The position numbers and the translations under genes were made by a program. The notes below the pieces were generated by a model. The model saw only the letters and a program-made list of their open reading frames with translations, had not been told where the DNA came from and made no database searches. Shown piece by piece: positions 4,023 through 46,496 of a stretch of 46,496 bases of DNA. Every line of letters starts with the position of its first letter. Within the stretch, counting starts at the first letter, position 1. Source of the stretch: a candidate division WWE3 bacterium (GTDB lineage: Bacteria; Patescibacteriota; WWE3; UBA101185; UBA10185); the NCBI GenBank assembly GCA_012798115.1, contig JAAZNV010000014.1, positions 1-46,496 of the forward strand, given 5' to 3'.

Positions 4023-7000
4023 TTACTGTCCTTTCCCAGTGAAATACTCAGATAGTATTACTTCCCTAGGGCCAGAAGTCTGTGCAGAACTCTCCGCTAA
4101 AGACTCTTTGAAAAGCTCATTAGGTATATCTCGTTTACAAACTGCAATTACTTTCAATGGGTCAATTGATGATTTTAATTCCTCATCTATTTCTTGTTTT
4201 AGCACTTTCAGAGTTTGCCTTGGTAATACACCTTCCTCCAATAAACGTATAACGTCTTTAAGATACTGTTCTTGATCCTCAGTAAATCCTTGATAGTGTT
4301 TGATTTGATTACTATTGAGATATTTCAATAACTGAGTTGCATTATCTCTTCCACTTGTTTTCTCAGCGATTTCGGCTTCATCGGTTGTTGCAAAGGTAAA
4401 CTCTTCTTTACTTTTTTCTAATAGTTCATAGTAATTCTTTCCCATCTTTTCTCTCTGAGTTTCTGGTTCTACTGTTAATAGATTAGCGGTAGTTATAAAA
4501 TCTAATTCGGTCGCTGTCTTACTGTCACTCAAGTAGAACTTTTCAAGTCTTCCCTTTCTCATGTATGAAAGCAGGGAGTTTTTATGCTCGTTTTGTGTAC
4601 GTGCAGTACGAGCTTTTCTGGGAAGCCTCTTTATTTTTTCGAACAAATCTACTTCTTTATCGCGAATATCCTTTATTACATGTAAGAACTTAAGCTCGCT
4701 CTCCTCATCCTTACCTTCGCCAGTGATAGTCTCTTTCATAGTCAACTGTTGGAATAAGTCGTGAGATTTGATTTCTTCTCCATCAGTTAATAAGCGAGCG
4801 TCATTACCCAACATCTCTATAAACATTTTAATTTTATATTCAGCAGCTTCCTTTAGTTGTATTTGATTATTGGCTTGCTGTGTTGGAAAGAAATTAAAAG
4901 TATATATAACATCAAACTTTGTATCGACGCGATTTATACGTCCCACTCTCTGCATTAATCTGGTTGGATTCCAAGGAAGGTCGTAGTTTATAACAACATT
5001 GGATCGGTGTAAATTTACACCTTCTGCTAAAACCTCTGTTGTAACCAGTATTCTAAAGTCATCACTTCTGTTTCTAGCTCTTGCGTCGAAGTTGTCTATA
5101 ACTTGATTTCTAATAATGTTACTTGAGGCACCAGTAAAAAGCAGTGTTTGGGTAGGAAAGTTACTTTCCAAATTCTTCTGAATATATTCTGCTGTTTCTT
5201 TAGATTCTGTAAATATTATTAACTTATTTTCCTTTAAGATGTTGTTTGATTTAAGGTTTGAAACAAATTCCAAAAGCTTTGGATCCCTATTAATCTTATT
5301 CCACAATTTCTGTATATCTGTAAGTATCCTCATATCATTTAATAGATTTTCTTTAAGCTGCGGATCGAAGTCATCTGTTGAGTATTTTTGAGCCTTATCC
5401 TCATCAATTAGCCTTTGTACTGCCTCATCATCATCGTTTTCAAGCATTTCAAATATCTTGTCTACATATCCTTTACTCACATAAACGTTTCCCTTCTCAT
5501 ATTCGTTTATAAACTGCTCATACGAGTAAAGAAATCTTTTTAATGTTTGCTTGAATGCAAAGAAACTACTTTCAAGACGTTTTATCAGGAGTATTTTCAT
5601 GAAACGACCCATATTTCTTTGTCCTTGTTCCTCAATGTTTTTTTGTTCACCGGTGAAATAAAGCATCGGCATATATCTTGAATAGGTAAATTCTTTTGTT
5701 ATTAATTCGATGGTTTTATTAAAAATCTCATCCTCCTCAGTATCTAGTTGATAAAATATCGGTTCGGGGTTCGCTACCTCAGGAAACTTTAAATTTTGCC
5801 TTTTTAAATCCTCACCAAAGTATTTTTGTATCTCGCTTCTGGTTCTTCTAACCATAAGGTGCTTTAGCACCTTCTCACGAATATCCCTTGAGTTTTGTTC
5901 TACCACAGACATATACTCCTCGTGGTCATCTTGTCTGTTTAACCCCTTAAGGTTGTTATCAAGTTTTGCAAAGAAAGATTCAAGATTGGGTAGTCCAGGC
6001 AAAGTGCTTTTTTTGGATTTTTGAAAAAGTTTTATTTGGCTCAGAATATCCTTAGGTGAATTATTTAAAGGTGTGGCTGTAATTAATATAACCCTCTTAC
6101 CCCAGCATATTTGTTTTAACAACTCGTATCTTCCTGTGACTTCGTTCCTAAAATTGTGGGATTCGTCTATAAAAACATTTTTATACTCCTCGGTTCCTTT
6201 CGCCACTAGTTTGTGCAATGATCCTATCGACTCAAAAGTTGCCGGTATATTGAAGTCTTTGAATACATTTCTCCATGAACCCAGATTTCTCTCGTCCAAA
6301 AGGTTAGGAGGTGCAAGAACTAAATTCCTACCCTCAAGTTGTTGGGCTAGCATGGAGGCGATATATGTTTTACCAAGACCCACGACATCCGAAATGAAAA
6401 CACCTCCATACTCTTCAACAATTCTTTTTGCGTTTAATACCGCCTGTTCTTGGTATTCCAAAGATTTAAAATTCTCGGGTATGTATTTATAAAATAACTC
6501 CTCAGATTGACTCAAGTCTGTTTTAAAATACTCATATAAAAACTTCAAATATAACTCATAAGGCGTGATCGTATCATTTAGCCAAGTTCTTTGCTGTACT
6601 GTTTCTATATATTTCTCGCTTACATCTACTGCCGACTCCCACAAGTGATTAAATTGTTTCTGTGCAAAAGAAACATCCTCAGGTCTACTCAATTCAACGT
6701 TAAACTCTAGGTTGTCAACAAGACCACTTTTTGTAAAATTGCTCGATCCTGTAATAACCCTTCCGACATCTCTATCTCCTTCCTTAAAACCCATAATATA
6801 GAGTTTTGCGTGTAGATTCTCTGTAGGATAAGCCTTTATCTCGAGCTTGCCCGATCTTAACCACTCGATAAATTTGTACACACCTTTTTCAACAGCTTCG
6901 GAATCTTTGGAGTTTTCTAACTCACTAAAAATCATGTTTTCAAAGTGTGTTTTTGTTTCTGAGTAAGAATATTCAAGCTCAAGTTGTTTTGATTTCTCTA

Positions 7001-12046: not shown

Positions 12047-12070
12047 AAAACTTATCCACAATAAACCCAT

Positions 12071-12098
12071 GGGAGAACAGGGACTCGAACCTGCTACC
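12071..12098 (-). other. tRNA 3'-half-like fragment, candidate attachment-site scar
   Basis: Minus strand GGTAGCAGGTTCGAGTCCCTGTTCTCCC has a T-loop TTCGAGT and acceptor-like end, with no 5' half nearby. Confidence 0.45.
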
Positions 12099-12218: not shown

Positions 12219-12292
12219 TGGCTGGGGGATAGGGATTCGAACCCCAATAGGCGGGACCAAAACCCGCAGTCCTACCGTTAGACGATCCCCCA
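12219..12292 (-). tRNA. tRNA-Gln(TTG)
   Basis: Cloverleaf TGGGGGATCGTCTAACGGTAGGAC TGCGGG TTTTGGT CCCGC...GGGGTTCGAATCCCTATCCCCCAG + CCA. Confidence 0.92.
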
Positions 12293-43430: not shown

Positions 43431-44645
43431 CTATAAATATTTTCTACCTTTTAACTTCTCTGGCATATACTCTTGATCTGTTTTCTTAGCTTCTAAACTA
43501 TGTTCATATTTATAACCTTTACCATACCCTATTTCCTTCATAAATTTAGTAGGAGCATTTCTAATTTCAAAAGGAACAGGTAAGTTACCATACTTTTCTA
43601 CGTCTTCTTTTACCTTCCCATAAGCAGTATAAAGTTTATTTGATTTAGGAGCTTTAGCTAAGTATGTAACAGTCTCTGCAAGTGCTAAGTTGCACTCAGG
43701 CATTCCAATAACCTCACATGCTTTAAATGCAGATACAGCAAGAATAAGAGCTTGAGGATCTTCTAAACCTACATCTTCTGATGCAAATCTAACTAATCTT
43801 CTTGCAACATAGATAGGATCTTGTCCTGCTTCAAGCATTCTGCCTAACCAATATAAAGCAGAATCAGGATCAGAACCTCTTAAAGACTTATGAAGAGCAG
43901 ATATTGTGTTATAAAACTCCTCACCTTTTAAATCAAATCCTAAATTTCTTCTCTGAAGAGCATTTTCTATGTGATTCATTTCTATCTTTTTTGATTTACT
44001 TAAGTTTGAAGCTATTTCTAAAACATTCAAAGCAATTCTTGCATCTCCGTTTGAGGATAAAGATAAGAAATCTAAAACATTAGACTCAACTTCTATTTTA
44101 AGTAAACTCACTCCCCTATTAATAATTGTTTTCAAATCATCTTCATCATGCTGTTTAAGAATCAATACTCTACATCTGGACATTAATGGTGATATAACTT
44201 CAAACGATGGGTTTTCAGTTGTTGCACCAATGAAGATAATGCTTCCCTTTTCAACATGGGGAAGAAGTGAATCTTGTTGTGCTTTATTAAATCTATGTAT
44301 TTCATCAACAAATACAATAGGAGGTATCTCATCCTTTTCTTCAGGAAGAATACCCAAACCCTTATCCTTTCTATTTTCTTGATTGGGAATTATCTTTTCT
44401 ATTTCTTTAGTAGATGTGTTTACTGCAGAAAATTCATAAAAGGTTCTACCAAGTTCGTTTGATATTATTCTTGCTAAGGTAGTTTTTCCTGATCCTGGGG
44501 GACCCCAGAATATTAATGAAGGAAAGAAATCAGTTTCTTTTGATCTTAGAAGAAGAGTTTTAATTACACCTACTATTTGTTCTTGACCAACAAAATCATC
44601 AATACCTTTAGGTCTTAATCTTTCTGCTAAGGGTTGAAGAGACAT
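43431..44645 (-). CDS. rarA: Replication-associated recombination protein A (AAA ATPase)
   Basis: PLAERLRPKGIDDFVGQEQIVG; FWGPPGSGKTTLARII; VFVDEIHRFNKAQQDSLLPHVEKG. Confidence 0.95.
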   Translation of the reverse strand: MSLQPLAERLRPKGIDDFVGQEQIVGVIKTLLLRSKETDFFPSLIFWGPPGSGKTTLARIISNELGRTFYEFSAVNTSTKEIEKIIPNQENRKDKGLGILPEEKDEIPPIVFVDEIHRFNKAQQDSLLPHVEKGSIIFIGATTENPSFEVISPLMSRCRVLILKQHDEDDLKTIINRGVSLLKIEVESNVLDFLSLSSNGDARIALNVLEIASNLSKSKKIEMNHIENALQRRNLGFDLKGEEFYNTISALHKSLRGSDPDSALYWLGRMLEAGQDPIYVARRLVRFASEDVGLEDPQALILAVSAFKACEVIGMPECNLALAETVTYLAKAPKSNKLYTAYGKVKEDVEKYGNLPVPFEIRNAPTKFMKEIGYGKGYKYEHSLEAKKTDQEYMPEKLKGRKYL

Positions 44646-44709: not shown

Positions 44710-44738
44710 TTGACAGAGAAGCACTGTTCTGATAGATT
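44710..44738 (+). promoter_or_regulatory. sigma70-like promoter for the tRNA-Ala transcript
   Basis: TTGACA N17 TAGATT. Confidence 0.55.
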
Positions 44739-44757
44739 ACAGACCTTAAAGGTAAAT

Positions 44758-44836
44758 GGACGTGTAGCTCAGTTGGCTAATTTAGAGCGCTTCCATGGCA
44801 TGGAAGAGGTCGGGGGTTCAAATCCTCCCGCGTCCA
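44758..44836 (+). tRNA. tRNA-Ala(GGC), atypical (A3:U70, CTA instead of CCA)
   Basis: GGACGTG TA GCTC...GAGC G CTTCC ATGGCAT GGAAG AGGTC GGGGG TTCAAAT CCTCC CGCGTCC A, then CTAG. Confidence 0.85.
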
Positions 44837-44982
44837 CTAGAGACATTAAGCATTCTTGATATGTCTCTAATGTTTACAGGGTGCTAAGTTAATACGGTAT
44901 GTTCACCCCTTCATACTGTAACCTCTAGCACCACTTTATATTACTCGCTAATTTTTATAAGAAGATTAGCGAGTTTTTTTAT
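44837..44982 (+). ncRNA. Structured tail downstream of tRNA-Ala, candidate sRNA
   Basis: Hairpin AGAGACAT...ATGTCTCT; long hairpin GGTGCTA...TACGGTATG...CATACTGTA...TAGCACC with C-rich loop TTCACCCCTT; terminator ACTCGCTAAT...ATTAGCGAGTTTTTTT. Confidence 0.5.
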
Positions 44983-45045
44983 CCTAGTTGATGATATTTC
45001 TTAACTATTAATAAACACAAAGCATATAATGTATTTAAGTTAATT

Positions 45046-46116
45046 ATGGTAGATACAAATGAAGGTAAAATTAAACAAATAGAAAATTTCTTAGACTCAA
45101 GGTATCCATCTTTTACTATTAAACAAATAACAAATGCAATTTATAAGCAAGGAGTAAAAAGTTATACTGATATATCAACAATCAAGAAAGAGCTAAGAGA
45201 AGAACTTAAAGATAAGTTTGGAAATGTATTATCACTTAAACCAATTGCTGTAACTAAAGAAAAACAAGCTCAAAAGATTCTTTTTGAAACAACAGATAAG
45301 CATAGAATTGAATCTGTAAGGATGGTTTATAAACCAAATGAAGAAAGAAAAGTTGAACATCAAGCTTTATGTGTTTCTACTCAAAGTGGGTGTGCAATGG
45401 GATGTAAATTTTGTGCAACAGGAGCTACAGGGTTTAGAAGAAACTTAACAGCTGATGAGATTGTAGATCAGTTTTTATACTTTATTCAAGAAAACATAAA
45501 TCTTGATACAGTATTTTTTAGTGGGATGGGAGAACCTTTAAATAACCCAAATTTTTTTAAATCTCTTGATATGTTTATCAACTATATAGGGCTGAGTCAA
45601 AGAAAGTTAAGTGTTTCAACATGCGGAATTACATCTGGTATTAGGAATATTACTAAAAAGTATCCTCAAGTAAATATTACATTGTCATTACATTTTCCTT
45701 TTCAAAGACAAAGAGAATCTTTAATGCCAGCAACGAAGAAATATCCATTACCTGAGGTATTGACTGCATTAAGAGAACATGTGTATAAAACAAATAAGAA
45801 GGTATTTCTAGCTTATGTTATGTTATCTAAAGTAAATGATACTGAAGAGCATGCTAAGGAACTATGTAGAATAATTAATAGGTCAGGAAGAAAAAATTAT
45901 CTTTTTCATGTTAATTTGATTAAGTTTCATGAAGGCTCTACTTTATCTTCTTTCAAACATTCTACAAAGGAAGATTTTAATAAGTTTTGCAAGATATTAG
46001 AAAGTAAACATATTAATTATACTATTAGACAAAACTTTGGGTCTGATATTGAAGCAGCTTGTGGTCAATTGTATGCAAGATACACATCCAAATCTTCCAA
46101 TTTGACAAGATTTTGA
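45046..46116 (+). CDS. rlmN: 23S rRNA (adenine(2503)-C2)-methyltransferase, radical SAM
   Basis: CVSTQSGCAMGCKFCATGATGFRRNLTADEIVDQ; FFSGMGEPLNN. Confidence 0.95.
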   Translation: MVDTNEGKIKQIENFLDSRYPSFTIKQITNAIYKQGVKSYTDISTIKKELREELKDKFGNVLSLKPIAVTKEKQAQKILFETTDKHRIESVRMVYKPNEERKVEHQALCVSTQSGCAMGCKFCATGATGFRRNLTADEIVDQFLYFIQENINLDTVFFSGMGEPLNNPNFFKSLDMFINYIGLSQRKLSVSTCGITSGIRNITKKYPQVNITLSLHFPFQRQRESLMPATKKYPLPEVLTALREHVYKTNKKVFLAYVMLSKVNDTEEHAKELCRIINRSGRKNYLFHVNLIKFHEGSTLSSFKHSTKEDFNKFCKILESKHINYTIRQNFGSDIEAACGQLYARYTSKSSNLTRF

Positions 46117-46163
46117 GGTTTTGATAGATTGATATTCTTGAAAATTAAAAGGAAGGAAGTATT

Positions 46164-46237
46164 TGGGACCTAGATCAATTGGTTAGATCGTCCTCTTACC
46201 AAGAGGAAGGTTCTAGGTTCAAATCCTAGGGTCTTAT
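46164..46237 (+). tRNA. tRNA-Gly(ACC), atypical (U1:A72, G3:U70, CTA instead of CCA)
   Basis: TGGGACC TA GATC AATTGGTTA GATC G TCCTC TTACCAA GAGGA AGGTT CTAGG TTCAAAT CCTAG GGTCTTA T, then CTAG. Confidence 0.75.
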
Positions 46238-46371
46238 CTAGGGCATTTGGGTAGATCCTCCTTTCTATGTTTAGGATAAGAAATAAGCCCTCCTATCCCT
46301 GCATTTCCCAAATGCCCTTAAAAACTTTACTCGCTATGTTTAATCTAAAGACGTAGCGAGTTTTTTTATTT
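46238..46371 (+). ncRNA. Structured tail downstream of tRNA-Gly(ACC), candidate sRNA
   Basis: Long stem AGGGCATTTGGG...CCCAAATGCCCT enclosing GATCCTCCTTTCT and CCCTCCTATCC; terminator ACTCGCTA...TAGCGAGTTTTTTT. Confidence 0.5.
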
Positions 46372-46421: not shown

Positions 46422-46496
46422 GGGGGCGTAGCTCAGCGGTAGAGCAGCGGCCTTTTAAGCCGCGTGTCATGGGTTCGATCCCCATCGCCCTCACCA
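46422..46496 (+). tRNA. tRNA-Lys(TTT)
   Basis: GGGGGCGTAGCTCAGCGGTAGAGCA GCGGC CTTTTAA GCCGC...CATGGGTTCGATCCCCATCGCCCTCACCA, ends at window edge. Confidence 0.96.

Follow-up and report, generated by a model that had tools for sequence, protein, structure and literature searches.

Two predicted transcription units with CCA-less tRNA-like heads in a WWE3 genome look like maintained tRNA mimics

Toward the right end of a contig from a candidate division WWE3 bacterium, two tRNA-like sequences that lack an encoded CCA end stand on either side of a methyltransferase gene, each leading into a structured tail and a terminator. The question raised by this locus is whether the two are tRNAs, remnants of tRNAs, or RNA genes in which a tRNA fold serves some other purpose. 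The stretch analyzed here, called the window, is an entire contig (C7; 46,496 nucleotides) of the source genome, G000, which comprises 760,854 bp in 14 contigs at 33% GC and is 95.28% complete. A 141-bp overlap between the right end of the window and the end of contig C4 indicates that C4 continues past the tRNA-Lys gene. Among the genomes compared were three congeners (G001, G002, and G003), a member of another genus (G004), and G016, which is 87% complete. We give roughly even odds (about 0.5) to the reading that the two units are dedicated noncoding RNA genes making tRNA-mimic RNAs, whose role would most likely be regulation by mimicry.

Both of the tRNA-headed cassettes described in a sequence-only reading of this DNA are present, and each belongs to a longer unit, designated A (positions 44710 to 44981) or B (46102 to 46368), with the components listed in Table 1. 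Each unit begins with a putative promoter that the earlier reading had not mentioned. Its form, TTGACA-N14-TGATAGATT, is common to A and B and has just two copies in the 760,854 bp of the genome, those of the two units. As had been read, CTAG directly adjoins the discriminator of both tRNA-like heads, with no CCA. The shared terminator ACTCGCTA...TAGCGAGTTTTTTTAT, likewise reported before, is found in both units and nowhere else in the genome, and the form ACTCGCTA..TAGCGAGTTTT also has exactly two genomic copies, both at A and B. The recurring lead-in ACTTTA..ACTCGCTA and the internal CTA(A)TGTTTA were recovered in both units as well. Since no other copies of these promoter and terminator forms exist in the genome, A and B are most simply read as paralogues. 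The layout that the two had been said to share extends to the CTAG, the short motif, and the terminator with its lead-in, but not to the fold of the tail, which forms two hairpins in A and one long branched hairpin in B. Both tails are predicted to fold far more stably than their dinucleotide shuffles, with z scores of −7.9 (A) and −6.1 (B). This anatomy supports the view that A and B are homologous, self-contained units that would be separately promoted and terminated.

Table 1. Features of the islet in the window and of the Tyr T-box locus elsewhere in the source genome
Feature	Position	Strand	Description
rarA (MgsA-type AAA+ ATPase)	43431..44645	-	Left islet border
Unit A promoter	44710..44738	+	TTGACA-N17-TAGATT, TG before -10 (sequence; motif count)
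Unit A head	44758..44836	+	Ala GGC anticodon arm, A3:U70 acceptor, long D loop, discriminator A, no CCA
Unit A tail	44837..44942	+	CTAG, hairpin 1 (44838-44869), hairpin 2 (44878-44935), C-rich loop UUCACCCCUU
Unit A intrinsic terminator	44943..44981	+	Stem 44943-44974 and T-run
RlmN/Cfr-family radical SAM 23S rRNA A2503 methyltransferase gene	45046..46116	+	Own promoter-like site 45001-45030
Unit B promoter	46102..46130	+	TTGACA-N17-TAGATT, TG before -10 (sequence; motif count)
Unit B head	46164..46237	+	Gly-like arm, anticodon ACC, acceptor U1:A72, G2:U71, G3:U70, discriminator U, no CCA
Unit B tail	46238..46328	+	CTAG, long branched hairpin (46240-46318); 46257-46267 is CCTCCTTTCTA
Unit B intrinsic terminator	46329..46368	+	Stem 46329-46361 and T-run
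Genuine tRNA-Lys(UUU)	46422..46496	+	CCA encoded; right islet border
Tyr T-box leader	G000:C14:27424-27667 (L282:7424-7667)	-	RF00230, 112.4 bits, specifier UAC
Tyr-like gene	G000 C14:24998-25080		No CCA, intact fold; then CCGG-closed hairpin, then genuine tRNA-Tyr

The heads score well as tRNAs. Against the Rfam tRNA model (RF00005; gathering score, 29), head A reaches 56.1 bits and head B 55.8 bits, and in each of them 21 of 21 stem pairs are intact. ARAGORN called head A a Gly TCC tRNA, but that call is shifted and wrong, as the 7-nt loop ATGGCAT gives the anticodon GGC. Indeed, a 27-nt stretch of head A, GAGCGCTTCCATGGCATGGAAGAGGTC, in the anticodon arm region, is identical to the genuine tRNA-Ala(GGC) of the same genome. 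Two-sided, compensated changes number 7 in A when it is compared with tRNA-Ala(GGC) and 12 in B when it is compared with tRNA-Gly(GCC), a count that presumes descent from those two tRNAs, although the fold is maintained even otherwise. Only three of the 50 tRNA-type genes in this genome (A, B, and a Tyr-like gene) lack an encoded CCA, which the other 47 have. All ten other tRNAs in the window encode it. A fragment that looks like the T arm and acceptor of a tRNA-Gln, again CCA-less, was also seen in the window (12069 to 12091, minus strand), near an intact tRNA-Gln (12219 to 12292).

Alanyl-tRNA synthetase recognizes the pair G3:U70, and the acceptor identity pairs of tRNA-Gly are G1-C72 and C2-G71. 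In head A, G3:U70 is replaced by A3:U70, and in head B both Gly pairs are lost, the acceptor now reading U1:A72, G2:U71, and G3:U70. By these established identity rules, neither head would be expected to be charged. A CCA-adding enzyme was not detected in the open reading frames (ORFs) of G000, G003, and G016 with Escherichia coli Cca and PcnB as queries and a small hidden Markov model (HMM), a search that a very divergent enzyme could escape. For the source genome, phmmer and a 3-sequence HMM for CCA-adding enzymes and poly(A) polymerases gave a best E value of 0.26 among its ORFs, and the motif GG.[VIL]RD...D.D was absent. An RNase Z search that used the E. coli enzyme likewise gave no clear match. 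Heads A and B thus have the cloverleaf of a functional tRNA, with T and D arms, and lack its CCA end and synthetase identity elements. A tmRNA has tRNA-Ala-like ends around a tag reading frame and no full anticodon arm; A and B keep complete anticodon arms, and the tmRNA of this genome lies elsewhere (G000:C2:6080-6453). On these features it is unlikely that the heads act in translation, and A and B look like maintained tRNA mimics, neither tRNAs nor decaying pseudogenes.

The units occupy a variable islet between rarA and tRNA-Lys(UUU), and its presence differs even within the genus. In G001 and G003, rarA adjoins tRNA-Lys(UUU) with nothing between them, and in the window the gap holds A, the methyltransferase gene, and B. 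In G002, three CCA-less tRNA-likes lie in the same gap, together with a putative TTGACA-N17-TAATCT promoter and a C-rich hairpin terminator whose loop is GCCTCCCCACCCT. The flanks of the islet correspond across genomes, with CGTGTAAACTTCGGGT on the rarA side, and ATAGTCTATAATATCAAAGAC and close variants of it preceding tRNA-Lys in G000, G001, and G002. In G004, from the other genus, the stretch just upstream of tRNA-Lys(UUU) carries a Val-like mimic followed by a tRNA-like whose anticodon arm is very long, along with a terminator. The long arm (G004:C75, L350, bases ~1175 to 1280) has its stem extended by an inner TGTTGTC/GGCAACA helix. A further cassette, in G016, runs from a TTGACA promoter through a Val-like sequence, a hairpin, a Gly-like sequence, and a long hairpin to a terminator.

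The sequence-only reading had itself named missing conservation of the tails among relatives as a result that would count against it. No homologue of either tail was found, and with that the idea of a conserved tail fails. Searching 38 relatives with unit A DNA recovered no relative of its tail, and a pattern combining the T arm with CTAG found no relative of A or B in 27 genomes of the family and 45 of the class. The pattern itself matched in 2 of those 45 genomes, and the second (G033) was set aside, as its matches are apparently ordinary CCA-less tRNAs. Viral contigs searched with the same pattern or with the terminator yielded no cassette, and the phages searched held no relative of either unit. 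What is conserved is the predicted architecture, one or more CCA-less tRNA-likes with a hairpin or terminator, which recurs in a congener, again between rarA and tRNA-Lys, and in other places within the family. Among the few close genomes and the relatives covered here, the similar cassettes suggest a family of tRNA-mimic RNAs.

Other CCA-less tRNA-likes were noted along the way. One in G003 (G003:C3:121165-121242; L219:1446-1523) has its own terminator and the anticodon UUA, which would read the UAA stop codon; it lies just downstream of a trpS-like gene assigned by eye. In G016, the sole tRNA-Trp found (G016:C6:142069-142142, minus strand) has no CCA, a discriminator A, and a G1:U72 pair, and the terminator after it is directly upstream of a trpS-like gene, again assigned by eye. 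The possibility that this tRNA-Trp and terminator form a synthetase leader was set aside because no other tRNA-Trp was found in G016, whose genome is incomplete. On G002:C70 (L313; 2732 to 3696), groES/groEL-like genes are preceded by an array of eight divergent tRNAs, most of them lacking CCA; this array may be phage or a bin contaminant.

The best mechanistic clue comes from a third CCA-less gene of the source genome. A Tyr T-box leader is followed, on the same strand, by genes for an AstE/AspA-type hydrolase and a GCS2-type ligase, then by a CCA-less Tyr mimic with the anticodon GUA, and then by tRNA-Tyr. A TATAAT-like site precedes the mimic in G000. The mimic, the CCGG-closed hairpin, and tRNA-Tyr recur in G001, which also has a T-box (on C38) whose UAC-A specifier, by our own assignment, matches in the alignment. 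The Tyr mimic would stand at the end of a putative T-box-led operon in both genomes. T-box antitermination needs the free NCCA end of a tRNA, and a CCA-less tRNA with the matching anticodon could therefore only compete there. This putative operon with its matching-anticodon mimic makes the competitor model directly testable in vitro.

That logic does not extend to A and B, since neither the Rfam scan of parts of G000 nor a pattern search revealed a T-box for Ala or Gly. The window has no T-box, and A and B show neither a Stem I specifier nor the antiterminator T-box sequence. T-box decoying was dropped as their role. It is a tentative proposal, less likely than not, that the CCA-less mimics as a family are dead-tRNA competitors for tRNA-sensing RNAs or enzymes in this bacterial family, with the Tyr mimic, the clearest case, as built-in negative feedback and A and B as stand-alone members.

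The tail of B suggests a further activity. Its loop CCTCCTTTCTA is identical to the 3′ end of the 16S rRNA of this genome, the anti-Shine-Dalgarno (anti-SD) sequence, and its computed accessible binding to SD sequence, −11.2 kcal/mol, ranks within about the top 1% of 400 segments drawn at random from the genome. The G002 loop falls in about the best 3% of 400 such segments, whereas the C-rich loop of A is unremarkable by the same comparison. SD binding was accordingly rejected as a general property of the tails, as it holds for B and G002 only. Of 560 long ORFs, about 22% have an SD-like motif; the figure for a control stretch is 7.5%, which makes SD pairing possible but not dominant. A scan of mRNAs for targets gave no distinct one.

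Taken as regulatory mimicry or decoying, the reading that we favor, the units would work as follows. Each would be transcribed from its own strong promoter, and the cloverleaf head, with a tRNA fold and a near-native anticodon arm, could be neither completed with CCA nor charged. It might then enter, or compete at, a tRNA-binding site as a dead tRNA, whether on a processing enzyme, a synthetase, the ribosome, or a tRNA-sensing RNA. The tail would stabilize the RNA, which would end at the intrinsic terminator, and in B the unpaired anti-SD stretch could hold ribosome-binding sites.

The variability of the islet also bears on a different account, in which phage-like or conjugative DNA brought it in and the tRNA-likes are passengers, leftovers without a current role. 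Such an origin fits an islet that is empty in G001 and G003, filled with an array in G002, and occupied by A, a cfr/rlmN-like gene, and B in the window. It also fits the inner gene, which is 49% identical to its congener copy, compared with 78 to 79% for rarA, and may thus have been acquired, as well as degenerate CCA-less tRNA arrays in other contigs, such as that on G002:C70. However, the islet holds no integrase or phage genes, the promoter and terminator have been kept nearly identical between the units, all stems are intact with their changes compensated, and neither unit occurs in any phage or viral contig searched; we consider the passenger account rather unlikely. It is very improbable that A and B are ordinary extra tRNAs that receive CCA after transcription and serve in translation. 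Their cloverleaf scores of 56 bits are good, and the sole tRNA-Trp found in G016 also lacks CCA, an argument weakened by the incompleteness of that genome (87%). Against this, CCA-encoding tRNA-Ala(GGC) and three Gly isoacceptors (GCC, TCC, and CCC) are already present in G000, the identity pairs are lost, and a CCA-adding enzyme went undetected in three genomes.

If instead the RNAs drew off tRNA-cutting or tRNA-modifying toxins or phage effectors, offering sacrificial anticodon arms on molecules unneeded in translation, one would understand why the anticodon arms are the best-kept part (A matches tRNA-Ala(GGC) over its 27 nt) and the acceptor has changed. An arms race would likewise fit the rapid turnover and the variety of anticodons seen among relatives. 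No anticodon nuclease or defense gene was seen adjoining the units, though, and the tails are left unexplained, which makes this improbable. The sequence-only reading had offered, as its second idea, that tRNA processing liberates a small RNA (sRNA); in that case a cut at CTAG would release the C-rich tail to work alone, the head being only a 5′ module for processing and stability. The junction is indeed common to both units, the tails have strong separate folds, and B carries the anti-SD loop. Yet the two tails are unlike in fold and sequence, RNase Z gave no clear match to the E. coli query, and the pressure on the anticodon arm is unaccounted for; we judge release of a tail sRNA to be distinctly improbable.

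To our knowledge, very few bacterial pseudo-tRNAs with regulatory roles are known. In Bacillus cereus, tRNA-Other is a poorly charged pseudo-tRNA that forms part of a larger regulatory RNA and adjoins a genomic island (PMC3399842). The longer RNAs that contain it end at an intrinsic terminator and extend as far as 565 nt upstream of it and 523 nt downstream, and it has been linked to T-box control of trpS1 (PMC3399842). Like tRNA-Other, A and B place a tRNA-like sequence in a longer RNA with its own predicted promoter and terminator; unlike it, their heads lie near the 5′ end, their tails, about 130 to 145 nt long, are very stable, and the units form a paralogous pair with similar genes besides. 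The likeness, drawn from descriptions, is conceptual and implies no sequence relation or descent. In E. coli, sRNAs of the 3′ETS-leuZ type lie downstream of genuine tRNAs and are released on processing. The RNA of A and B is similarly downstream of a tRNA-like sequence and may be released on processing, but the heads are not usable tRNAs and each unit has a predicted promoter and terminator of its own. The TMER RNAs of murine gammaherpesvirus 68, polymerase III-transcribed viral genes that give rise to microRNAs, also place hairpins after a tRNA-like head in one short transcript, an analogue in architecture only, with no relationship. A family of compact CCA-less mimics, in a setting where all the other tRNAs of a tiny genome have CCA encoded, would make it possible to study cleanly what a dead tRNA does.

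The gene between the units had been named rlmN. A gene of that kind is indeed flanked by A and B, but its product is nearer to Cfr than to RlmN, with model scores of 391 bits for Cfr (cutoff, 530) and 268 bits for RlmN (cutoff, 290), both below the cutoff, and RlmN/Cfr-family is the better name. Copies in relatives are of the same Cfr-like type, and the synteny around the gene is not kept in them. Searches of genome contigs gave no match to the Cfr/RlmN-like protein and only distant bacteria for rarA, with no close relatives. A Cfr-like methyltransferase acting on 23S rRNA could influence antibiotics directed at the ribosome. The 23S rRNA gene of this genome has a length of about 4.8 kb (L253:3551-8382; G000:C2) and contains a group I intron (RF00028) at 6277 to 6531 and further inserted sequence.
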